In this document: positions 1,898 to 29,022 of the stretch, piece after piece | Position numbering within the stretch: position 1 is the first letter of the stretch | Layout of the letters: every line of letters starts with the position of its first letter | Source of the DNA: a virus | DNA length: 29,249 bases | IMG/VR virus record: IMGVR_UViG_3300030329_002712 | Location: 1-29,249 of that record | Direction: 5' to 3' (one strand) | The notes under the pieces: generated by a model | Database searches by the model: none | The model's input: only the letters and a program-made list of their open reading frames with translations | Told to the model about the DNA's origin: nothing | Program-made: the position numbers and the translations under genes

Positions 1898-2211
1898 CAA
1901 CAACAAACTTTAGAGCGTTATCGCCGTTTGCAAATTCACGCGAAACTAGCGAGGTCGTCAACAACATCCTAGCTGGTAAAATGAACGCTACAGGTACGGT
2001 GACCTTGACGAACAGTGCGACGACAACAAGCGTAACCGACTATCGTGTTAGTGGTGATAGCGTAATTTTATTTATGCCAACATCTTCTGATGGAGCATCA
2101 GAATTGGCAGCGGGTACAATGTATGTCAGCGCAAGAACGAAACAGGCGTTTACCATCACCCACGCGAACGCGACGACAACGCGGAGTTTTGCATACGTCG
2201 TCGTTGGCTAA
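1894..2211 (+). CDS. Small virion-associated protein, unknown function
   Basis: 105 residues, beginning MTTTNFRALSPF and overlapping the preceding stop as ATGA. The N-terminal 30 residues look helical (NSRETSEVVNNILAGKMN). The rest is Thr/Ser/Val-rich and strongly beta, ending in AYVVVG. There is no signal peptide or cysteine. Proteins with this short-helix-plus-beta-sandwich look often sit beside neck and fibre genes in podovirus-like genomes, where they are annotated as hypothetical. The tight coupling on both sides makes it a structural or assembly protein by context only. Confidence 0.7.
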   Translation: MTTTNFRALSPFANSRETSEVVNNILAGKMNATGTVTLTNSATTTSVTDYRVSGDSVILFMPTSSDGASELAAGTMYVSARTKQAFTITHANATTTRSFAYVVVG

Positions 2212-2311
2212 TCCAATAGCTAAAAATTTAAGAACACCGAAATTTCGGATGCGCGTCATTCGATCTAGGAAGAAATACGACAGAGCCAAAATGAAGGATT
2301 TGATGGAATGA
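2204..2311 (+). CDS. Tiny basic protein, TTG start
   Basis: 35 residues, read from a TTG inside the end of the previous gene. Sequence features: LANPIAKNLRTPKF, then RMRVIRSRKKYDRAK and an acidic end. About a third is Lys/Arg. Without it there would be an unexplained 96-base gap in an otherwise gapless operon; with it, the stop overlaps the next start (ATGA at 2308). Short Lys/Arg peptides of the form x-N-P-I-A-K-x-L-R-x-P-K-F/Y recur in phage genomes in my recollection. An ATG at 2249 would leave only 20 residues. Function is unknown; nucleic-acid binding is a guess from charge. Confidence 0.55.
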   Translation: MANPIAKNLRTPKFRMRVIRSRKKYDRAKMKDLME

Positions 2312-3177
2312 ATTTTCTAGGCGATTTGTTTGGCAGCAAACCAGAAGTTACGAGCGTTGCCACAACGACAAGCGGCCCGCCCGCGTATGCGGAGCCCTAT
2401 TTAAAAGACGCTTTTAAATGGGCGCAAGACTTATATAAGACGCCGCGTGAATACTACCCAGGTCAAAGCTGGGTTGATTTCTCACCCGCCACGGCGGCGG
2501 CTTTAGATCGGGGCGAGGCGAGAGCAATGGCGGGGAGCCCTTTGGTTAGTGGGGCGCAACATTTTGTGAACACGGCGATGGGCGGCGGGTTTACCAACCC
2601 GGCGACTGAATTGCTCATGCAGAGTGCGCAAGGTGATTTTCTATCGGGCAGTAATCCTTATTTAGCGGCGGCAATGCAACCCGCCATTGACCAAATTCAA
2701 GGTCAATTTTCTCTTGGTGGCCGATTAGGCAGCGGTGCAAATATGAGCGCGATGACAAGCGCGTTGGCTCCTGTGTACGCGCAAAATTATGCGACAGAGC
2801 GTTCTAATCAATTAGCCGCTCAAAATGCTATAGCAAATCTGGGACAACTTGATTTCCAAAATCGGATGAGCGCGGCGGGGATGGCTCCAACGTTGGCAGC
2901 CGAAGATTATACAGACATAGGAAGGTTGATCGGATTCGGAACTGCGCGGGAAGAAAAGACGGCAGAGAAACTGGCCGACGCAATGTCGCGCTGGAACTTT
3001 TTGGAAAATGAAGAAATGGAAAGGCTCAACAATTACCTTGCTGCCGTTAAGGGTGGCACGATGGGTAGTACAACCAGCCAGCCTATTTATAGCGATCCTA
3101 CCTCAAGCGCCATCGGAAATCTGTCAGGGCTTGCCGGGGCGGCGTACTTGGCGAGTAAAGTTTTTGGAGGCCTATGA
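2308..3177 (+). CDS. Probable internal virion / DNA-ejection protein 1
   Basis: 289 residues. The N terminus (MNFLGDLFGSKPEV) is followed by an aromatic-rich segment (YAEPYLKDAFKWAQDLY, PREYYPGQSWVDF). The middle is Ala/Gln/Gly-rich, with the characteristic stretch GGRLGSGANMSAMTSAL near residue 137, then long helices with A-Q-N repeats. The C terminus is hydrophobic and Gly/Ala-rich (LSGLAGAAYLASKVFGGL). This NPYL...GSGAN...NYATER pattern is typical of proteins next to the ejection genes of podoviruses. Three consecutive genes of rising size (289, 377, 712 residues) match the gp7/gp20/gp16 logic of P22, whose products leave the capsid with the DNA and build a trans-envelope channel. Confidence 0.65.
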   Translation: MNFLGDLFGSKPEVTSVATTTSGPPAYAEPYLKDAFKWAQDLYKTPREYYPGQSWVDFSPATAAALDRGEARAMAGSPLVSGAQHFVNTAMGGGFTNPATELLMQSAQGDFLSGSNPYLAAAMQPAIDQIQGQFSLGGRLGSGANMSAMTSALAPVYAQNYATERSNQLAAQNAIANLGQLDFQNRMSAAGMAPTLAAEDYTDIGRLIGFGTAREEKTAEKLADAMSRWNFLENEEMERLNNYLAAVKGGTMGSTTSQPIYSDPTSSAIGNLSGLAGAAYLASKVFGGL

Positions 3178-4310
3178 TGCTTGGTAATTTAAAACCGCTT
3201 TTAGCTTCTGGTGCGATCACTCCCGCTGACCAAAAAGATGCGGCAATTATGGGTTTGCTAAGTTTGGGGGCTCAATACGGTCAACGCGGCCAGCCTCGTT
3301 TAACTCCAGCCGCGCCGCCTATTGATGTCGGGAAAGCGATGGGCGTCTACCAGAATGCTCTGCAAGGCGCAATAAAGCGAGGCCAATTTGCCAAGGCATT
3401 GAAAGCGGAGACTGCTTTGAAAACGGCTCTCGCAAACCCTCAAATGTTGGGCGGGATACCAAAGTCAATGCAACCGTTTATAAGAACTGTCGGTCAACAT
3501 AACCCGGCGGCAGCATTAAGTATGGTTGGCCCGGTCTTGGCGGCTCAAGCTAAAGATCGAACGCCTACCAGTTTGCGGGAAATACAAACGATCTCAAACA
3601 CATTGCAAACACTTTCCCCGACTGATCCAAGGCGTCCCGTGTTAAAAGCAAGGTTAAATAAGATTACAACAAACACGCCGATGTTTATGCATGCGCCTAA
3701 AGATTATTTTGGCGAAATGGGTCTTAAAGTATGGGAAAAGGCAAGTGATGAAGCGGCCACAGCGGCAAGTAAAATGTTCACTCTTAATGAAATGGCATCA
3801 TTATTAAGAACGGGAGTGCCAACAGGTAGTGTTCAGAAAATGGCTCTGCCGTTTAGGAAAATATTAGCTGACTTTGGGGTTGGCGATAAAAACATAGCTG
3901 TGCAAGAGGCCATAACGTCAGTTGGGGATGAGTTGGCACTTGGCAAGCATGGCCCCGGCATGGGGCCGATGACTGATCCTGATTTTAGAATCTATCAGGG
4001 TATTATGCCTGGAATGAAAAACACACCAGCGGGCAACGCTCTAATTATGCAGCGTATAAAGCGTGAATATCTTGGCAAACAAATGTATGCCAAGGTTTTA
4101 AGAGAACAAATTCAGGAGAAGGGCTTCCAAAACGTAGATGCTGGGGATGCTTGGCGGGAAGTAGCGCGACGCCTTGACGCTGATCCTGATATTGGCCCTA
4201 TGATTCCAAAATTTAAAACAGAATCCGACTTTAGGAAAGTTCAAAGCAAGTACGCGGGCATGGTTGTTATGATTGGCAATAATCCGTTGTATGTGAAGCC
4301 AAAACAATGA
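3177..4310 (+). CDS. Probable internal virion / DNA-ejection protein 2
   Basis: 377 residues. Two adjacent ATGs exist (3174, 3177). A strong GGAGG ends at base 3170, and its spacing favours 3177. The protein is mostly alpha-helical and basic, with an N-terminal Leu/Ala/Gly-rich segment (MLGNLKPLLASGAI, IMGLLSLGAQYGQ), a central Gln/Lys helix region, and a Met/Gly-rich loop near residue 255 (GKHGPGMGPMTDPDFRIY). No enzymatic motif is visible. It lies between two probable ejection proteins with overlapping stops and starts, so it is called a virion internal protein by context. A tail-tape or scaffold role is less likely at this length and position. Confidence 0.6.
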   Translation: MLGNLKPLLASGAITPADQKDAAIMGLLSLGAQYGQRGQPRLTPAAPPIDVGKAMGVYQNALQGAIKRGQFAKALKAETALKTALANPQMLGGIPKSMQPFIRTVGQHNPAAALSMVGPVLAAQAKDRTPTSLREIQTISNTLQTLSPTDPRRPVLKARLNKITTNTPMFMHAPKDYFGEMGLKVWEKASDEAATAASKMFTLNEMASLLRTGVPTGSVQKMALPFRKILADFGVGDKNIAVQEAITSVGDELALGKHGPGMGPMTDPDFRIYQGIMPGMKNTPAGNALIMQRIKREYLGKQMYAKVLREQIQEKGFQNVDAGDAWREVARRLDADPDIGPMIPKFKTESDFRKVQSKYAGMVVMIGNNPLYVKPKQ

Positions 4311-14036: not shown

Positions 14037-14160
14037 ACGCTGTGTAAATTGCGGCTGCACCAAACCGAAAGTCTGGGTTCATGGTCACTATCAGTGCGCT
14101 GACTGTAAATGCGTCACAGATGGCGACTGTTGCCAGGGTGAAAGCGAATCGGAAAAATGA
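14014..14160 (+). CDS. Small zinc-ribbon protein
   Basis: 48 residues from the ATG at 14014. Two Cys pairs, C-V-N-C-G-C and C-A-D-C-K-C, lie about 15 residues apart, followed by a D-C-C near the end; this is a probable zinc ribbon. The frame stays open upstream to an ATG at 13867 with AGGAG ten bases before it, which would give 97 residues. That extension would be a translation of the tiny basic gene in another frame and looks low-complexity, so the shorter start is preferred. The stop codon TGA is also the first three bases of the 13-bp attP arm motif. Confidence 0.55.
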   Translation: MLEKNESERCVNCGCTKPKVWVHGHYQCADCKCVTDGDCCQGESESEK

Positions 14161-14191
14161 CCGTCAGGTTTTCTTGTAAATTGTGGATTTG

Positions 14192-14211
14192 CGTTTACAA
14201 AAAGTTTACAA
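14192..14211 (+). repeat. attP arm-type site, left copy
   Basis: CGTTTACAAAAAGTTTACAA, two GTTTACAA units eleven bases apart. Identical to 14444-14463; a related reverse copy lies at 26561-26579. Confidence 0.7.
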
Positions 14212-14328
14212 CCCTTTAAAGCCTTTCATATCCTATGAAAGCATGTTATATCCCTTGGTGACCCACTAAGTGATTGGCATGATTATAAGTTATTGATTTA
14301 TATGAAAGAATTTTTTGGCGGCGTCTCA

Positions 14329-14373
14329 CTCATAACCTGAAGGTCGTAGGTTCAAATCCTACCCCCGCAACCA
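14329..14373 (+). other. attP core: 3' half of initiator tRNA-Met
   Basis: Starting in the anticodon loop (CTCATAA, anticodon CAT at 14331-14333), the sequence continues as the 3' anticodon stem CCTGA, variable loop, T-arm GTAGG-TTCAAAT-CCTAC, acceptor strand CCCCGCA, discriminator A and CCA. The last acceptor base is A, where a C1-A72 mismatch marks initiator tRNAs. The matching 5' half is absent: the bases upstream of the loop do not pair with CCTGA and no acceptor 5' strand is present. Integration here would rebuild the host tRNA 3' end, including CCA. This is not a functional tRNA gene by itself. Confidence 0.85.
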
Positions 14374-14401
14374 TTTAATTAATTATATATATCAATAATT
14401 T

Positions 14402-14431
14402 AGCCGTCCCTACGGGGGCGGCTTTTTTTTT
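14402..14431 (+). terminator. Rho-independent terminator after the att core
   Basis: Nine-pair stem (AGCCGTCCC with GGGGCGGCT, one T-G wobble) closed by a C(TACG)G tetraloop of the exceptionally stable UNCG class, followed by nine Ts. It lies 29 bases after the tRNA CCA end and may have been captured from the host tRNA locus, or it stops late transcription before the integrase operon. Confidence 0.85.
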
Positions 14432-14443
14432 GTTTTTAGCTCT

Positions 14444-14463
14444 CGTTTACAAAAAGTTTACAA
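14444..14463 (+). repeat. attP arm-type site, right copy
   Basis: Exact direct copy of 14192-14211. A further half site GTTTACAA lies at 14495-14502, three bases before the inverted 13-bp motif. Confidence 0.7.
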
Positions 14464-14526
14464 GTCTAAGTGCGAAAGTGCCAATTTTTGAAAAGTTTAC
14501 AAAATAACCTGACGGTCAAATAATTA

Positions 14527-14563: not shown

Positions 14564-14590
14564 TGAGAGAAACAAAGGAGAGAGAAAATG
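14564..14590 (+). repeat. Leader / ribosome-site cassette, copy 1
   Basis: 27 bases ending in the start ATG and containing AAAGGAGAGAG. The identical 27 bases precede the gene at 14915; shorter copies end at 15078 (14 bases) and 15339 (20 bases). The repeat provides a strong Shine-Dalgarno at the same spacing each time. Confidence 0.8.
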
Positions 14591-14830
14591 TACAAAATAA
14601 TTGAAAACTTTTTTCCAGGCGAAGGCGCAACGATTAGCACGTTATATCGTGATGGGATTGTCACCGCCGCCCATGCGCTGAAAATTGCCGACCTCAAAAA
14701 TCAAGAGGCCGCCGCTGTAAGAATTGACGCGTGGTACGAAGTAATTGATGCGGATGGCAAGGAAGTGAGGAAGGTCGTAAACGAAAAGTATGATGCATCA
14801 GAGCCTGATTATAATGAAATCCCATTTTAA
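14588..14830 (+). CDS. Small protein with SSB-like C-terminal tail
   Basis: 80 residues, first gene after attP, with a strong AAGGAG ribosome site. The N terminus reads MYKIIENFFPGEG. The middle is helical and Ala-rich (HALKIADLKNQEAAAVRIDAW), then a beta hairpin (YEVIDADGKEVRKVV). It ends in an acidic tail DASEPDYNEIPF. Bacterial SSB proteins end D-D-D-I-P-F, the peptide that recruits DNA-repair and replication proteins, so this tail may mimic it. No family is recognised. Its position makes it an early or lysogenic-phase gene sharing a promoter with integrase. Confidence 0.7.
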   Translation: MYKIIENFFPGEGATISTLYRDGIVTAAHALKIADLKNQEAAAVRIDAWYEVIDADGKEVRKVVNEKYDASEPDYNEIPF

Positions 14831-14890: not shown

Positions 14891-14917
14891 TGAGAGAAAC
14901 AAAGGAGAGAGAAAATG
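14891..14917 (+). repeat. Leader / ribosome-site cassette, copy 2
   Basis: Exact 27-base copy of 14564-14590, again ending at an ATG. The surrounding coding sequences are unrelated, so the leader was duplicated on its own or the genes were exchanged around it. Confidence 0.8.
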
Positions 14918-15079
14918 GCTAACCTAATTCACGAACCAAAACAATATGTCAGCAAATACGAACACGTTCTAACTGTTGATGCATTCAATGAGGCAATTGA
15001 AAATGACAGCCTGCCAATGGGGATGAGCATCAACTATGCACTGGAAGTCATTGCAATCTTGAAGGGAGAGAGAAAATGA
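14915..15079 (+). CDS. Small hypothetical early protein
   Basis: 54 residues starting MANLIHEPKQYVSKYEH. It is a compact helical protein (LTVDAFNEAIENDSLP, then INYALEVIAILKGERK) without Cys or membrane segments. The perfect ribosome-site cassette and the ATGA overlap with the next gene make it real despite its length. Its last codons (GGAGAGAGAAAATGA) double as the ribosome site of the next gene. Function unknown. Confidence 0.7.
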   Translation: MANLIHEPKQYVSKYEHVLTVDAFNEAIENDSLPMGMSINYALEVIAILKGERK

Positions 15080-15318
15080 GAATTTATTACGCTAGATTTC
15101 CCGATGGAACGGATGACTTTTACACTACAGTGCGCGGGGTGAAATTTCCCGAAGGAACGGAGCTTTGCGTACAAATTACCGACAGGGATGGCACTTTGAT
15201 TGACGGGCATGACATCCCCGTTGTCGGCGGCAAGGCGCAGATCAACGGGCGCGGCAAGCGTCAGGCTAAAATTCACTACGGCTACGAGCGCAGTGAGCGT
15301 ACCCCTAAATCCACATAG
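15076..15318 (+). CDS. Small hypothetical early protein
   Basis: 80 residues. Beta-rich (MRIYYARFPDGTDDFYTTVRG, TELCVQITDRDGTLIDGHD), ending in a basic tail with Lys/Arg (GRGKRQAKIHYGYERSERT). The ribosome site GGGAGAGAG is embedded in the previous gene, so translation is coupled. No family is recognised. The acidic-to-basic charge split suggests a small fold with a nucleic-acid or partner-binding tail, but that is only an impression. Confidence 0.7.
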   Translation: MRIYYARFPDGTDDFYTTVRGVKFPEGTELCVQITDRDGTLIDGHDIPVVGGKAQINGRGKRQAKIHYGYERSERTPKST

Positions 15319-15319
15319 G

Positions 15320-15339
15320 AACAAAGGAGAGAGAAAATG
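15320..15339 (+). repeat. Leader / ribosome-site cassette, copy 3 (20 bases)
   Basis: Shares the last 20 bases of the cassette through the ATG of the next gene. Together with copies ending at 14590, 14917 and 15078, four early genes have nearly identical initiation regions. Confidence 0.75.
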
Positions 15340-15597
15340 ACCGAAGCTATTAAAATTCCAAAGCGTTACTATGACGATCATGTAGAGTGCGATTGCATTG
15401 CACCTAAAATTATTCGGCAAACTAAACAGCATTATTTTATTGATCCAACTGAAAACGATGAAATGGCTGAATTTCGTAGTCGCTTAGATTTGTATGCTAA
15501 CAGTCATTGCACACAGGATTATTGGGAATCATGCAGAGGCATTGTTATGTCTGCACAAGCCACATTAGTCGCGTTAAATAAATCAAGTGGAGAGTGA
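15337..15597 (+). CDS. Small hypothetical early protein, Cys-containing
   Basis: 86 residues from an ATG in the third leader cassette. The N-terminal part is polar with a C-D-C motif near residue 19 (HVECDCIAPKIIRQTKQHYF). It continues with a helical part containing two more Cys (SHCTQDYWESCRGIVMSAQATLVAL). Four Cys could bind a metal, but the spacing does not match a standard ribbon. No family is recognised. It lies in the accessory block between attP and integrase. Confidence 0.65.
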   Translation: MTEAIKIPKRYYDDHVECDCIAPKIIRQTKQHYFIDPTENDEMAEFRSRLDLYANSHCTQDYWESCRGIVMSAQATLVALNKSSGE

Positions 15598-22622: not shown

Positions 22623-24628
22623 TGGTTGCACGTTACGAGACATACGGCCCTGGCTTAATCGCGCAGGGCTACGACATAACGCCACTACACGGGAAGCGTC
22701 CTAAATTAGAGGCGTGGCAAAAACGCCCGCAAGAAGTGCTAGAATTCACAAAATACGGCAAAAGCAATATTGGCGTTCTGTGTGGCGGCGAAAGTAATAT
22801 CGTTGCTGTGGACGTAGACGTGTACAGTGAAAACGTATCACAGCTTGTGCAAAAGGCCGTCATAGATGAACTAGGGTTTGCTCCCCAACGCATCGGCCAA
22901 GCTCCAAAAACGTTATTCGTGTTTCGTTGCACAGAGCCGATGAAGAAAACAAAAACGGCAGTATTCGAAATCGACAACAAGGAATGCGCCGTCGAAATTC
23001 TAGCCGAAGGTCAACAATTTGTTGCATCAGGCATCCACCCTGACACAAAAAAGAAATATAGTTGGGTCGATGATTCGATAGTAGATGTCAGCGTTGACGG
23101 GTTGACGAAGGTAACGCCGTCGCAGTTGCATCAATTCATTGCATCCATGAACAGCCTACTCGCAACGTATGGCGAAAAGAAAGGCCGCAAGACCAATGGT
23201 GAAGCTGCTACGCAACTCGATTGGTTCGCAACCAATGAACTAGAAGGAAAGAAAAAGGAAATCGATATAGCCCTGGCGCACATCGATAATAATGATTGGC
23301 ACTACGACGATTGGGTGCAGATGGCTCATGCCATCAAAGGCGCACTAGCGGATGACGGCCTGGAACTATGGCACAGATGGTCAAAACGATCTCAAAAATA
23401 TGATGACGCCGAAACGGACAGAGTTTGGGAGAGTATCAAAGATGTAAAAAGCGTTGGCGCGGGAACGATATTTTATTTAGCAAAAGAATATGACTTTGAT
23501 ATCGGAACGTTTAGGCGTGAGAGTGAACAAATAACAACGCCGCAACAGCCAAGCGCGATACCTTTTATACCGTGGAACGACATCACGGGGGGCGACGGTG
23601 CGGATGATTTTGTCGAGAACGTACTAGGTACAGGACAAATGAGCGTCCTGTACGGCGAATCGAATACCGGGAAAACATTTTTCGTTCTTGATCTCTGCAT
23701 TCACGTCGCATTCGGTTGGGATTGGAACGGTAACGAATGCGATAAAGGCGGTGTAATTTATGCGGCGCTGGAAGGTGCGCACGGCATACGTAACCGAATA
23801 GCCGCCTTTAAACACTATGCGAAAGAACGCATAAACGATGAAACGCCAGACTTTGAAGCGATAACAACAAATATCGATTTACTTAGCGAAGATGGCGACA
23901 CAAAAACTCTAATTGATGCAGTAAATGAACGCCAGAAGGGGTTTAAATCGCCTCTGAGGCTGATCGTCATTGATACCCTAGCCAGAGCCCTCTCAGGCGG
24001 CAATGAGAACTCTAGCGAAGATATGGGGCGTCTGGTGATACATGCCGACGCCATCCGAAAAGAAACAGGCGCACACGTTTGTTTCGTACACCATAGTGGT
24101 AAGGATCAAGCCAAAGGTGCTAGGGGGCATAGCTCACTTAGAGCCGCAACGGATACGGAAATAGAAGTAATACGCAATCAAGACGAAAATATCAGTGCCG
24201 CAAAAGTCACAAAACAACGTGAATTTGAAGGCGGGCAGCAATGGTATTTCAAACTTGAATACGTCGAATTAGGCACAAATAGAAGAATGAAATCGTTTGG
24301 AAGCTGTGTCGTTACACCAGCCGATACCGATGAAGTTTCCAACATTATGCAGCCCAAAATTAAGTTCACCGATAATCAGGCGTTAGTCGTTTCGACGTTA
24401 AAACGGCTGATCGATGAGCATGGAATTCAGCGTGAGGGATATGATCGTCGCAGCATTGCAATCGAACAATTATATGATGAATTGGACGGCAGATTTAACG
24501 AAAAACGGTTCATAAATAACCAAACAATAATGCGTGTTTTAAATTCTCAGAAGCTAAAAAACACCATCACAGTTTTTGAAAAAACGGTCTGGTTGGTCGA
24601 AAGAGCATCACAGTCAACATCACACTAA
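22619..24628 (+). CDS. Primase-helicase (prim-pol N terminus, RecA-type helicase)
   Basis: 669 residues. The N-terminal 180 residues match the bifunctional primase/polymerase fold: P-L-x-G-K-R-P, then the catalytic V-D65-V-D67 pair and the later GQQFVASGIHP. A PriCT-like helical region follows (IDNNDWHYDDWVQMAHAIKG). From residue about 340 it is a RepA/AAA_25 ATPase: Walker A G346-E-S-N-T-G-K-T, Walker B LIVID (448-452) and H-H-S-G-K-D (491-496). It should unwind the origin and make primers for the host polymerase. The iteron cluster begins in its last codons and continues downstream. Confidence 0.9.
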   Translation: MMVARYETYGPGLIAQGYDITPLHGKRPKLEAWQKRPQEVLEFTKYGKSNIGVLCGGESNIVAVDVDVYSENVSQLVQKAVIDELGFAPQRIGQAPKTLFVFRCTEPMKKTKTAVFEIDNKECAVEILAEGQQFVASGIHPDTKKKYSWVDDSIVDVSVDGLTKVTPSQLHQFIASMNSLLATYGEKKGRKTNGEAATQLDWFATNELEGKKKEIDIALAHIDNNDWHYDDWVQMAHAIKGALADDGLELWHRWSKRSQKYDDAETDRVWESIKDVKSVGAGTIFYLAKEYDFDIGTFRRESEQITTPQQPSAIPFIPWNDITGGDGADDFVENVLGTGQMSVLYGESNTGKTFFVLDLCIHVAFGWDWNGNECDKGGVIYAALEGAHGIRNRIAAFKHYAKERINDETPDFEAITTNIDLLSEDGDTKTLIDAVNERQKGFKSPLRLIVIDTLARALSGGNENSSEDMGRLVIHADAIRKETGAHVCFVHHSGKDQAKGARGHSSLRAATDTEIEVIRNQDENISAAKVTKQREFEGGQQWYFKLEYVELGTNRRMKSFGSCVVTPADTDEVSNIMQPKIKFTDNQALVVSTLKRLIDEHGIQREGYDRRSIAIEQLYDELDGRFNEKRFINNQTIMRVLNSQKLKNTITVFEKTVWLVERASQSTSH

Positions 24629-24809
24629 TATCACACTTTTTAAAAAACTGTGATGTTGGCGTAAGTATTTGAAAAGGAACGGTAATATGAATTCTATTAT
24701 TGTTGCATCACAGAAAACATCACACTTTTCGTATCATCACATCACATCACAGTACATATATAGGTACTGTGATGTTGTGATATTGTGATATTGTGATGCG
24801 GCATCACAA
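24606..24809 (+). repeat. CATCACA iteron cluster, candidate replication origin
   Basis: Eleven exact copies of CATCACA or its reverse TGTGATG lie in about 200 bases. Forward starts: 24606, 24618, 24706, 24718, 24735, 24740, 24745, 24802. Reverse starts: 24649, 24768, 24792. Three variant copies (TATCACA/TGTGATA) add to this. Two forward pairs are spaced 12 bases apart. Three inverted repeats are formed: 24615-24624 with 24649-24658 (10 bp), 24744-24755 with 24764-24775 (12 bp, 8-base AT loop) and the palindrome 24791-24809 (9 bp arms). Directly after a primase-helicase gene, such iterons suggest an origin. Alternatively they are operators for the gene starting at 24793. Confidence 0.65.
24687..24788 (+). 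CDS. Possible 33-residue leader peptide inside the iterons
   Basis: MNSIIVASQKTSHFSYHHIT and so on, with AAAAGGA seven bases before the ATG. It ends five bases before the next start, so it might couple translation. Its codons mostly spell iterons (SQ, HH, TS), so the protein may be a by-product. Weak. Confidence 0.25.
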   Translation: MNSIIVASQKTSHFSYHHITSQYIYRYCDVVIL

Positions 24810-25768: not shown

Positions 25769-25786
25769 CGTTAAATTATCTTTATA

Positions 25787-25802
25787 GTGATAATTTTATC
25801 AC
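25787..25802 (+). promoter_or_regulatory. 16-bp palindrome before the late promoter
   Basis: GTGATAA-TT-TTATCAC, a perfect palindrome four bases upstream of a -35-like TTGACT. Likely an operator for an activator or repressor of late genes. Confidence 0.5.
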
Positions 25803-25806
25803 AATG

Positions 25807-25836
25807 TTGACTTTGTGCATCAAAATCGTCTAAAAA
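25807..25836 (+). promoter_or_regulatory. Candidate late promoter
   Basis: TTGACT (25807-25812), 18-base spacer, TAAAAA (25831-25836). The -10 is poor. Terminators follow within 12 and 47 bases, as at lambda pR'. Confidence 0.35.
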
Positions 25837-25846
25837 TAAATATGTT

Positions 25847-25866
25847 AGGGGCTCTGCCCCTTTTTT
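25847..25866 (+). terminator. Rho-independent terminator
   Basis: AGGGGC-TCT-GCCCC and a run of Ts: a five- to six-pair GC stem with a 3-base loop and T6. Ends the replication operon, or lies downstream of the late promoter. Confidence 0.8.
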
Positions 25867-25882
25867 CTCTCCTACTAAACTG

Positions 25883-25924
25883 AAAAGTGACGGCGTTCGT
25901 CTCCTGGCGTCGTCACTTTTTTTT
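25883..25924 (+). terminator. Second rho-independent terminator
   Basis: Ten-pair stem AAAAGTGACG / CGTCACTTTT, 18-base loop, T tract continuing to 25924. The A-rich 5' arm makes it usable in both directions. It stands just before the ribosome site of the next gene. Confidence 0.75.
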
Positions 25925-25936
25925 GAAAGAGTTATT

Positions 25937-26089
25937 TTGATTTACAGCGGCTACACCGAAAAGATTGGTGAGAATACGTTTTCTCTGTTTCTGATACTTG
26001 AAGGGTTTGCCTCAAGAGAAGCGGCGAGAGAATTTATGCACGTTCTGATGGACCCGTATACTGATGAAGATGAACCAACGAGGCATTGA
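25937..26089 (+). CDS. Small acidic protein before TerS, TTG start
   Basis: 50 residues from TTG 25937, GAAAGAG five bases upstream. It reads MIYSGYTEKIGENTFSLFLI, then LEGFASREAAREFMHVLMD and an acidic tail. The -LEGFxSxExAxxFxxx- pattern is a small alpha/beta fold seen in short phage proteins beside terminase genes. Its stop overlaps the TerS start (TGATG). There is no ATG in its N-terminal half. It would be the first gene of the packaging operon; function unknown. Confidence 0.6.
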   Translation: MIYSGYTEKIGENTFSLFLILEGFASREAAREFMHVLMDPYTDEDEPTRH

Positions 26090-26559
26090 TGTCTGACTTA
26101 CCGAAGCTGACAATTAAGCAAGAGAAGTTTGCGCGACAATACGTTGGGCCTTGTGAGGGGAACGCTTCAGCGGCGTATAAAGCCGCCTACAATGCGAAGA
26201 ATATGAGCGATGAGGTTGTAAGAGTTAAAGCGTGTGAATTACTGAAGAACGGTAACGTAGCGGTAATGGTTGATCGGCTAAAAGCGGAATATTCTGCTCA
26301 AGAAGCTATCACCGTCGAGGAAATTAGCGGCGCGTTGCGCCGTGCGGTGGAAGGCGCGGCGGCGGCGGGCCAGTGGTCGGCGGTGTCCCAAGCGACCTTG
26401 GGATTGGCGAAATTGGGGGGTCTTTTGGTCGAAAAACGGCAGATTTCCGTTGATGACGAAGGTGCGCACCTAGACGCCGTGTCGGCTCTAGCAGAGGTTC
26501 CGCGCCGTAAGCGCAGCGACGATGAAGAAACCGTCGTCCCGCTTGCTAAAACAGGGTGA
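26089..26559 (+). CDS. terS: Terminase small subunit
   Basis: 156 residues from ATG 26089. The N-terminal DNA-binding segment LTIKQEKFARQYV...GNASAAYKAAYNAKNMSDEVVRVKACELL is the Terminase_2 signature (a homeodomain-like HTH that reads the packaging site). The central helices (EEISGALRRAVEGAAAAGQW) build the oligomer, and the C terminus is acidic and disordered (RRKRSDDEETVVPL). It recognises phage DNA and hands it to TerL. A 187-base non-coding gap rather than an overlap separates it from terL. Confidence 0.9.
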   Translation: MSDLPKLTIKQEKFARQYVGPCEGNASAAYKAAYNAKNMSDEVVRVKACELLKNGNVAVMVDRLKAEYSAQEAITVEEISGALRRAVEGAAAAGQWSAVSQATLGLAKLGGLLVEKRQISVDDEGAHLDAVSALAEVPRRKRSDDEETVVPLAKTG

Positions 26560-26560
26560 T

Positions 26561-26622
26561 TTGTAAACTATTTGTAAACATTGGCTGTAAGTCATTGATA
26601 TTAAACGCATGACCGTCAGGTT
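26561..26622 (+). repeat. Distal copy of the attP arm motifs
   Basis: TTGTAAACTATTTGTAAAC at 26561-26579 equals the reverse complement of the attP 19-mer with one change in the spacer. TGACCGTCAGGTT at 26610-26622 is identical to the motif that borders attP at 14158; the identity extends one base further upstream (ATGACC...). Confidence 0.8.
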
Positions 26623-26634
26623 AATCCCCTGACG
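26614..26634 (+). promoter_or_regulatory. Hairpin in the terS-terL gap
   Basis: CGTCAGG-ttaatcc-CCTGACG, a perfect seven-pair stem including most of the 13-bp motif. A second, imperfect GC-rich inverted repeat lies at 26692-26726. Possible parts of a packaging (pac/cos) site; no T tract for termination. Confidence 0.4.
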
Positions 26635-26746
26635 TTGCCCCGATTCGGGCGTCGATTTGGTTTGATATGGTCGAGGCCCCCCCTAAAAAATGCGGGCGGG
26701 GCGTAAATTATTTGTACCGCCCCCGCGTCAAATTTAGAGCAATTTT

Positions 26747-28156
26747 ATGGCCGCTGAAAAAAAATTCGTTTGGAAAAATTTTATAAAACGCTACTACGAC
26801 GACCCGGCAGGGTTTAGCGAGCATGTGATAAAAATGCCACCATTGGGGTGGCAACGCGAAGTGATGGAAGCTATCGCAAAAGGCGAACGTAGGCTATCCC
26901 TGCGCAGTGGTCACGGCGTTGGGAAAAGTTCGTGCGCTGCGGCAATAATACTCTGGTTTCTGTTAACCCGTTACCCCTGCAAGGTTGTTGTCACCGCTCC
27001 CACGGCATCCCAACTCTACGATGCTCTATTCGCTGAATTGAAGGGGCGTTTAAAGGAAATGCCGAAGGCCGTCAGCAAGCTTCTTGAGGCAACGAGTGAC
27101 CGTGTCGTTTTAAAAAGCAGCCCAACCGAAGCTTTTTGCAGTGCCAGGACAAGCTCAAAAGAGCGTCCCGAATCGCTTGCGGGCGTTCACAGTGAAAACG
27201 TTTTGCTGATAGCGGATGAGGCTAGTGGCATTCCTGAAGAAGTGTTTGAAAGTGCGGCTGGCTCCATGTCGGGTCACAACGCTACAACCCTGCTTCTAGG
27301 TAACCCGGTACGCGGCCAGGGCTTCTTCTATCGAACGCATACGGAATTATCGAATGATTGGTGGACTAAAAAGGTTTCTTGCTCCGACAGCCCTTTGGTT
27401 GCGGCTGATTTCCTTAAAGACATGGCTAATCGATATGGTGAAGAAAGCAACGCATATCGTGTGCGCGTTTTGGGCGAATTTCCGCAAGCTGATGAGGATA
27501 CTTATATCCCGCTTCATTTGATTGAAGCCGCCCAGCATCGGGATATTGAAACCAGCCCTGCCGCCGCTGTTGTCTGGGGATTGGATTGTGCGCGGTACGG
27601 CAGCGACAGATCGGCGTTAGCGAAGCGGAAGGGCAACGAGTTAGTCGAGGTTAAGACTTGGCGCGATAAATCGACAATGGAGTTGGCGGGTATTGTTTTA
27701 GACGAATACGAGAACACGCCAATCATTGATAGGCCGACAGAGATTTGCATCGACAGCATCGGCATCGGGTCAGGCGTTCACGATAGATGTCATGAATTAG
27801 ATTTGCCAGCGAGGAGCATTAACGTCGCTGAAAGTGCGTCGTTGAAGGTAAAATATATGCGTCTTAGAGACGAATTATGGGGCAGGGCGCGAGAGTGGTT
27901 CGAGGCGAAGGAGTGCGTCATTCCGAAAGATGATGCGCAACTTGTTCATGAACTGGCGGCTCCCCGTTTCGCATTCACGTCAACGGGCAAAATTAAAATT
28001 GAAAGCAAGGACGAGATGCGCAAACGCGGTATACGTTCGCCAGATATAGCAGATGCTTTTTGCTTAACCTTTGCATCAAACGCCGTATTGGCGGCACACG
28101 GCAGCAAGTATGGCTGGCGCAACATAATTGAGACAGATACGAGCTGGGTAGTTTAA
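26747..28156 (+). CDS. terL: Terminase large subunit
   Basis: 469 residues. The N-terminal ATPase has Walker A S54-G-H-G-V-G-K-S-S, Walker B VLLIADEA (152-159) and the coupling motif L-L-L-G-N-P (182-187). The C-terminal RNase H-like nuclease has acidic residues at D280 (WGLDCARYGSDRSAL), D336 (ICIDSIGIGSG) and D433/D436 (SPDIADAF). It translocates DNA into the capsid and cuts it. The ribosome site upstream is weak. The next gene starts on its last base. Confidence 0.95.
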   Translation: MAAEKKFVWKNFIKRYYDDPAGFSEHVIKMPPLGWQREVMEAIAKGERRLSLRSGHGVGKSSCAAAIILWFLLTRYPCKVVVTAPTASQLYDALFAELKGRLKEMPKAVSKLLEATSDRVVLKSSPTEAFCSARTSSKERPESLAGVHSENVLLIADEASGIPEEVFESAAGSMSGHNATTLLLGNPVRGQGFFYRTHTELSNDWWTKKVSCSDSPLVAADFLKDMANRYGEESNAYRVRVLGEFPQADEDTYIPLHLIEAAQHRDIETSPAAAVVWGLDCARYGSDRSALAKRKGNELVEVKTWRDKSTMELAGIVLDEYENTPIIDRPTEICIDSIGIGSGVHDRCHELDLPARSINVAESASLKVKYMRLRDELWGRAREWFEAKECVIPKDDAQLVHELAAPRFAFTSTGKIKIESKDEMRKRGIRSPDIADAFCLTFASNAVLAAHGSKYGWRNIIETDTSWVV

Positions 28157-29022
28157 TGGCGTTTTATCCGAATTTATTGGGCATTGGTGATCCAGTGCAG
28201 ATTTTGGCTATGCCGTCGTATGGCACGGTTTCACCGTTTGCATCGGGACACACGTCTACGGGTATGGTTCCTGTTGAGGTTGTAAAAAAGCCTGAAACTG
28301 AAGTTGTCATGGTTCCTGAAGAAGTTGCGTCGGACCCGCGTCGCGTTGTTCGTCCATTATTACCGACAACTGATATTTTTGACGATGACGGCGAAGGCGG
28401 TACGCCGCCTATCGTAGAATACAATCCTAGTTGGGTCGATATGCAGCCAGGGACGCCGGGGCCGGGAAACTTGTTTAGCACAACGCCTATGAACATTGCG
28501 CCGCCTGGGACTTTGACGGCGGGCGGTACGCCGTCACTAGCTAACCCGGTTGGGACGATGCTTTCGCGTGGCGAGTCCGTTCTGACAAACCCAATTAATG
28601 CGGCACAGACGTTAGGCACGGGCGGCGGTTTGTTGTTAGGTCCGTTGGGTAGCATTTTGGGCGGCGGCATTGGTGCTTATGCGGGCTCTCACGCCGTTGA
28701 TGATATGGTGCAGGGTTCGACGGGTTATAACCCAGACGTTTCTGGTTGGTCGCAATTTTTTAATTCTCTGACCTTTGGTTTGCTTGGCGAGAGTGGCGCG
28801 GAGCAAATGCAGAATGAATATGACGCCTTTAGCGGCCAGGATAATATGTTTGGTTTGGATGATGATTTATCACCTATTGATTTAGAACAAATGCAAGCTG
28901 ACGCGGCGGCGTCAAAAGCGGCGGCTGACCTTGTGATGGCTACGCAATCCGTTGATGATTTTGGCGATCAGGATTGGGGCGATGACTGGGGCGGGGAAGA
29001 TGCTGGAATGGCGATTCCGTAA
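28156..29022 (+). CDS. Unknown Gly/Pro-rich protein downstream of TerL
   Basis: 288 residues, starting one base inside the TerL stop. The N-terminal 140 residues are Pro/Gly-rich and disordered-looking (PGTPGPGNLFSTTPMN). Residues about 155-185 are hydrophobic and Gly-rich (GGGLLLGPLGSILGGGIGAYAG), a possible membrane-inserting segment. The C terminus is very acidic (DDFGDQDWGDDWGGEDAG). This is where a portal gene usually stands, but no portal features are visible. The hydrophobic glycine zipper plus acidic tail resembles internal or ejection proteins. Not recognised. Confidence 0.65.
   Translation: MAFYPNLLGIGDPVQILAMPSYGTVSPFASGHTSTGMVPVEVVKKPETEVVMVPEEVASDPRRVVRPLLPTTDIFDDDGEGGTPPIVEYNPSWVDMQPGTPGPGNLFSTTPMNIAPPGTLTAGGTPSLANPVGTMLSRGESVLTNPINAAQTLGTGGGLLLGPLGSILGGGIGAYAGSHAVDDMVQGSTGYNPDVSGWSQFFNSLTFGLLGESGAEQMQNEYDAFSGQDNMFGLDDDLSPIDLEQMQADAAASKAAADLVMATQSVDDFGDQDWGDDWGGEDAGMAIP

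Follow-up and report, generated by a model that had tools for sequence, protein, structure and literature searches.

A predicted att-like integrase site between terS and terL of a viral genome, with a possible role at the packaging end

Why should the motifs of a phage attachment site recur between the two terminase genes of the same genome? The question is raised by a 29,249-base IMG/VR virus record, analyzed here over its full length (the window), which carries tail and lysis genes, attP, int, a repressor, replication genes and the terS–terL pair. An earlier note on this DNA had pointed to two motifs of the attP arms that reappear together at 26561–26622. The recurrence is real: the sequence is as described, the copies are confined to attP and the gap, and shuffled sequences never equal their counts. 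The exact motif TTGTAAAC is present seven times in the window (five times in attP and twice in the gap, against 1.27 expected), a number reached in none of 100 shuffles. The 13-mer TGACCGTCAGGTT is found exactly only in attP, at 14158(+) and 14506(-), and in the gap, at 26610(+); a copy with two mismatches (14334–14346(-)) falls within the attP core. When up to two mismatches are allowed, 0.35 copies are expected in the window, and four were reached in 0 of 100 shuffles. The gap itself spans 187 bases (26560–26746). It is not the only sizeable one of the packaging region, as had been thought, since a stretch of 317 bases (25769–26085) is also without an ORF of at least 60 aa.

The elements of attP and of the gap are collected in Table 1. 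In the attP core, the half-site CCTGAAGGTC stands beside CTCATAA and is of the core type, whereas the TGACCGTCAGGTT copies bracket the whole attP as an inverted repeat. The reverse complement of the 13-mer, AACCTGACGGTCA, is a near copy of CCTGAAGGTC and resembles the anticodon stem in the tRNA-fMet fragment of that core. As judged from these sequences, the TTGTAAAC pairs read as arm-type sites of the integrase and TGACCGTCAGGTT as a core-type half-site, which is different in kind. The description of the 13-mer as a second arm motif is better replaced accordingly, while its recurrence holds. The IHF consensus has only five matches in the window; two of them flank the attP core and one is in the terS–terL gap. 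Between attP and int, several small ORFs are preceded by a near-identical leader, GAAACAAAGGAGAGAGAAAATG (14564–14602, 14891–14929 and 15313–15351), of which shorter related copies are found at 15062 and 15586. Elsewhere in the window, a 22-base inverted repeat, 91% complementary (24562–24583 and 24637–24658), straddles the 3′ boundary where the primase/helicase gene ends.

Table 1. Coordinates of att-like elements and associated genes in the window
Feature	Position	Strand	Remarks
attP left end, outer core-type half-site TGACCGTCAGGTT	14158..14170	+	
attP left arm	14174..14211		TTGTAAAT at 14174-14181 (+); TTGTAAAC pair at 14193-14211 (-)
IHF consensus left of attP core	14286..14298	-	
attP core	14329..14373	+	3′ part of tRNA-fMet-like gene
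CTCATAA	14329-14335		anticodon loop; probable 7-bp overlap of attP core
IHF consensus right of attP core	14390..14402	+	
attP right arm	14445..14502	-	TTGTAAAC pair at 14445-14463; lone TTGTAAAC at 14495-14502
attP right end, outer core-type half-site TGACCGTCAGGTT	14506..14518	-	
int, tyrosine integrase, 422 aa	15937..17205	+	PF00589, 2.1e-16; phrog_1, 7.5e-43
terS, terminase small subunit	26086..26559	+	Pfam PF03592, 4e-09; phrog_51
Predicted integrase arm-type pair TTGTAAAC-TAT-TTGTAAAC	26561..26579	+	11-bp period; begins 2 bases downstream of the last base of the terS stop codon (26559)
IHF consensus TATCAATGACTTA (WATCAANNNNTTR)	26588..26600	-	between arm pair and dyad
Core-like dyad	26611..26634	+	GACCGTCAGG (26611-26620); 7-bp spacer TTAATCC (26621-26627); CCTGACG (26628-26634)
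GC-rich inverted repeat GGCCCCCCC..GGGCGGGGC and AT box TTATTTGTA	26675..26716		kept upstream of terL in relatives
terL, terminase large subunit	26747..28156	+	phrog_2, 1.2e-44

In the gap, the elements follow one another as arm pair, IHF consensus and core. The double site, TTGTAAACTATTTGTAAAC (26561–26579), is one base off the attP copies at 14193–14211(-) and 14445–14463(-). The dyad, GACCGTCAGG-TTAATCC-CCTGACG, contains most of the 13-mer, and its inverted core half-sites flank 7 bp and match the attP core with substitutions. When read in reverse complement, the gap runs core, IHF and arm pair, which is the order and orientation of the attP right arm. The whole has the appearance of a compact half-attP, resembling an attL. 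It is not an attP arm copied whole: the order and the spacing differ, and the 13-mer, which is outside the arm sites in attP, is inside, at a core-like position, in the gap. When the gap was scanned for promoters and terminators, the matches were at chance level only.

Relatives were collected via TerL (80 in all), and a scan for the conserved packaging-box pattern gained only two further contigs. A direct search confirmed no relatives of the window integrase. In the relatives the layout of the gap is conserved, the IHF consensus being accompanied by a dyad whose arms stand about 7 bp apart, by a GC-rich inverted repeat and by an AT box. The IHF consensus, exact or near, occupies the same place in the gap in most close relatives; it was not found upstream of terL at any of six distant TerL loci of prophages in genome contigs. 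TerL of G041 and G042 is 50–51% identical to that of the window, and in some relatives a single additional small ORF precedes terL. The arms of the dyad differ among phages yet stay complementary, with 5.05 of 6 pairs formed within a phage (a figure raised by the choice of dyad centers for best pairing) vs. 2.74 between phages, and none of 10,000 permutations was as good. The central bases of the dyad vary even among close relatives (L008–L011).

What protein, then, reads the dyad? The TerS proteins of G004 and G009 are about 70% identical to that of the window and their dyads differ, whereas the dyad half-sites of the window recur in G001, whose TerS is 65% identical. As TerS identity and dyad type disagree, relatedness of TerS does not explain the dyad. 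A TerS operator was considered for the dyad and rejected on the same ground. A related proposal is that the dyad and the IHF site form a packaging signal for TerS and IHF, of the kind seen in λ cosB, the likeness to attP being coincidental. IHF sites and repeats beside the packaging site are indeed typical of cos regions, as in λ. We nevertheless consider this proposal very improbable, since the dyad tracks attP and not TerS identity, the arm pairs are left unexplained, and both the shuffles and the genome-wide tests described next disfavor a chance likeness.

The relatives were scanned for the motif pair, whose absence from this gap in every close relative would, by the earlier note, speak against the finding. 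The literal TTGTAAAC pair is indeed absent from the gap in all those examined; its functional equivalents are not, since relatives have arm and core sequences of their own in the gap. In G011, G041 and G042, the arm pairs of the gap are re-spelled as at their own attP (TTTGCGAA, TGGTGCTATG and TTTATCACT, respectively), and in G009, too, the gap holds the arm pair of the phage's attP (arm TTGGGTCCAA, with TTGGAACCAA in the gap). The cores follow the integration target, which is tRNA-fMet in the window, G001 and G041, tRNA-Lys in G009, tRNA-Thr in G004 and a non-tRNA core in G011. The exact arm pair, TTGTAAACNNNTTGTAAAC, was found in 116 stretches of viral contigs, of which one has a distant TerL match (26%), another a distant integrase match (28%) and none a TerS match. 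The exact arm spelling is thus specific to this phage.

The association can also be seen without choosing motifs. When each phage's own genome was scanned with its gap, the best matches were in attP for several phages. In 400-base windows, the phage's own attP was the best genome-wide match in the window, G001, G009, G011 and G015 and was near the top in G004; it was not recovered in G007 and G010. With attP as the query and 160-base windows, the gap ranked top in seven of ten phages (window, G001, G004, G009, G011, G041 and G042), and none of the 2188–3813 other windows equaled it in those seven; as the scan windows overlap, these counts are ranks and not probabilities. It should be noted that some of the attP limits were drawn after the gap matches had been seen, and that the G004 fragment is without an int gene. 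Judged by spelling, the gap motifs appear to be rewritten to follow the specificity of the phage's integrase. Since they change with attP and not with TerS, the integrase is the simplest common reader. The joint change of the gap motifs and each phage's own attP motifs therefore supports the suggestion that both places are read by the integrase or a partner.

Some relatives do not conform. The gap of G001 has no arm pair, and in those of G007 and G010 one TTGTAAT is all that matches the presumed attP. In G015 (L215), the attP core is tRNA-His-like (about 28,700–28,900 of the record) and the gap dyad matches the anticodon arm of tRNA-Thr(TGT); here the gap–attP match is mainly one of IHF-like sequences. 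The disagreement in G015 is possibly due to a recent integrase swap. All four count against the explanation proposed below. G015 is also what one would expect if the gap held a vestige, an attP or attL arm that recombination had long ago deposited in the packaging region: its gap fits a tRNA other than that of the present attP, as a relic would, and mosaic genomes do move att sites. This origin is improbable in our view, because the gap tracks the current attP spelling in seven phages with several integrase specificities, and no such re-spelling would be expected of a relic. Relocation of an old arm by recombination had been among the explanations offered at the outset; it is not favored, as the sites have been re-spelled to follow the current integrase. 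As a main reading, a moved attP arm was also set aside for its order and spacing. On balance, we think it very probable from the sequence comparisons that the gap is an att-like site bound by the integrase. The identity of the site is well supported, and its function we infer.

If the gap is an att-like site, with what could it recombine? The 7-bp overlaps of attP and gap, respectively, are TTATGAG and TTAATCC in the window, TTATGAG and TAGATGA in G001, TTAAAAG and TTAGTTA in G009, TTACAAA and TTATGTA in G004, and CTCATAA and CTGATAG in G041. The overlap of the gap is unlike that of attP in all six phages in which both are readable (these five and G011), the first three bases often being shared. 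Tyrosine integrases tend to enforce identity of the overlap (PMC10111431). The gap site should therefore not recombine with attP or attB. Its overlap is always identical to that of another copy of the same gap site. The gap could also be thought of as an attB-like target for satellites, or for superinfecting relatives, whose integrase has the same specificity. Its core does resemble the half-sites of the phage's own attB, and there are satellites that target late genes, the helper-embedded ones using those of prophages (PMC10111431). An attB, however, needs neither arm pairs nor IHF sites, and the gap has both; nor was an inserted element with a second attP arm seen in the gaps of the relatives read, a small sample. 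We regard such a target as quite improbable.

The position of the gap in the packaged genome can be estimated from Sinorhizobium phage phiM5, whose TerL is 52% identical. The deposited sequence has a direct terminal repeat of 357 bp, with identical copies at the two ends of the record. This repeat runs through a GC-rich inverted repeat and terminates shortly past it, at an AT box about 36 bp upstream of terL. The window has the counterpart of the inverted repeat and the AT box upstream of terL, at 26675–26716. By homology with phiM5, the terminal cut is probably near 26714/26715 in the window, and the gap would probably be within the terminal repeat if that repeat is at least about 160 bp long. 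Among the relatives, a terminal repeat has been deposited for phiM5 alone, and this phage has a tyrosine recombinase and no att-like site in the repeat. This makes it the main counter-example to the proposal. A separate observation concerns the G009 record (L208/L209), in which the start sequence recurs at the end as a second copy of the terS–gap region; the two differ by one base in a run of T. The record breaks off no more than a few bases from the AT box, the element at which the phiM5 terminal repeat ends.

A second clade of relatives (TerL 55–60%) bears on what the site may do. No tyrosine integrase was found in this clade, including in seven records of at least 35 kb, one of which has a serine recombinase. 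Many of its gaps contain an XerD-type half-site, CATTATGTTAA, with a 6-bp center and a weaker second half. The XerD half, TTATGTTAA, is found in most sequences of the integrase-less clade and the XerC half is weak. An IHF consensus and the DnaA-box-like TTATCCACA are found in several gaps of the clade (L230–L301, e.g., L301:640–700 and L255:220–260). The presence of another recombination-type site in the same gap favors recombination over simple binding. These dif-like sites could alternatively serve integration at the host dif. In some distant relatives, a serine recombinase gene lies directly upstream of terL (L045 and L266; PF00239 match in G043 and G025).

How might the site work? Int with IHF would assemble on the gap as on one arm of attP. 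If the gap is at the packaging end, within a direct terminal repeat, the virion genome would have one copy at each end. Int could then recombine the two copies with each other and so circularize the injected genome before integration, or it could resolve multimers. On the counter side, the window also encodes an exonuclease-like protein, and homologous recombination might circularize the genome instead. We hold a recombination role for the gap site to be plausible, at somewhat less than an even chance, and an integrase-bound att-like site with a recombination role, taken together, to be nearly an even proposition. More tentative still is the full scheme, in which a temperate podovirus-like lineage would keep a private second att site in its terminal repeat: the half-sites would follow the integrase, the overlap would avoid that of attP, the site would join or resolve the ends, and relatives without an integrase would use a host XerCD-type site in its place.

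The integrase and IHF might alternatively bind the gap as a regulator, blocking transcription of terL or access of terminase and thereby delaying the packaging of genomes bound for integration. This would require binding alone, in line with the motif evidence; the differing overlap would then simply be unconstrained, and the gap site does adjoin the probable packaging cut. A complete core of two half-sites with 7-bp spacing would be unneeded, though, the promoter match in the gap is at chance level only, and the integrase-less relatives have a dif-like site instead. Moreover, G041 and G042 have arm and core in the opposite order with respect to terL. This speaks mildly for a recombination site and against a road-block that depends on direction. 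We therefore judge regulation rather unlikely. Control of packaging genes by the integrase, as first suggested, is possible and is less supported than the recombination of gap copies.

In closing, it may be asked what such a site would mean. To our knowledge, how temperate phages with short terminal repeats circularize before integration is not settled, and we found in the open-access literature neither an answer nor a terminase region described as containing an integrase site. If true, a second site for the integrase at the packaging end, compatible with its own copies, would offer a simple answer, and one that can be tested directly. One recombinase would then be kept to two separate reactions by the overlap sequence alone. 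The evolution of the integrase would also be coupled to the packaging region. Such a coupling matters both when host tRNA targets are predicted and when the specificity of integrases is to be understood.

The likeness to the λ-type attL, a half-attP, lies in the arm-type pair, the IHF consensus, the inverted core half-sites around a 7-bp overlap and the order core–IHF–arm; what differs is that the phage genome has attP as well, 12 kb away, that the gap site is in the packaging operon and that its overlap is unlike that of attP. In λ cosB, too, the packaging site is accompanied by an IHF site and a repeat, but the repeat in the gap follows the integrase and its tRNA target rather than TerS. In satellite attPs, doubled co-oriented motifs have been proposed as arm sites, at comparable distances from the attP center (PMC10111431). 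The HE-PICIs share with the present case this doubled motif and integrase sites in prophage late genes (PMC10111431); here, no satellite is inserted in the gap and the gap site itself has arms. The dif/cer sites of XerCD used by phages are matched in the integrase-less relatives by the XerD-type half-site in the same gap, with a weak XerC half, whereas the site of the window is spelled for the phage integrase. The proposed use has its parallel in phage P1, where Cre acts at loxP as a system of cyclization and multimer resolution. There too, a tyrosine-recombinase site, loxP, is near pac, at the packaging end, and joining of terminally redundant ends is the role proposed here. P1 employs a separate recombinase for the purpose, whereas in the present phage the integrase of lysogeny would itself act at a private second site.
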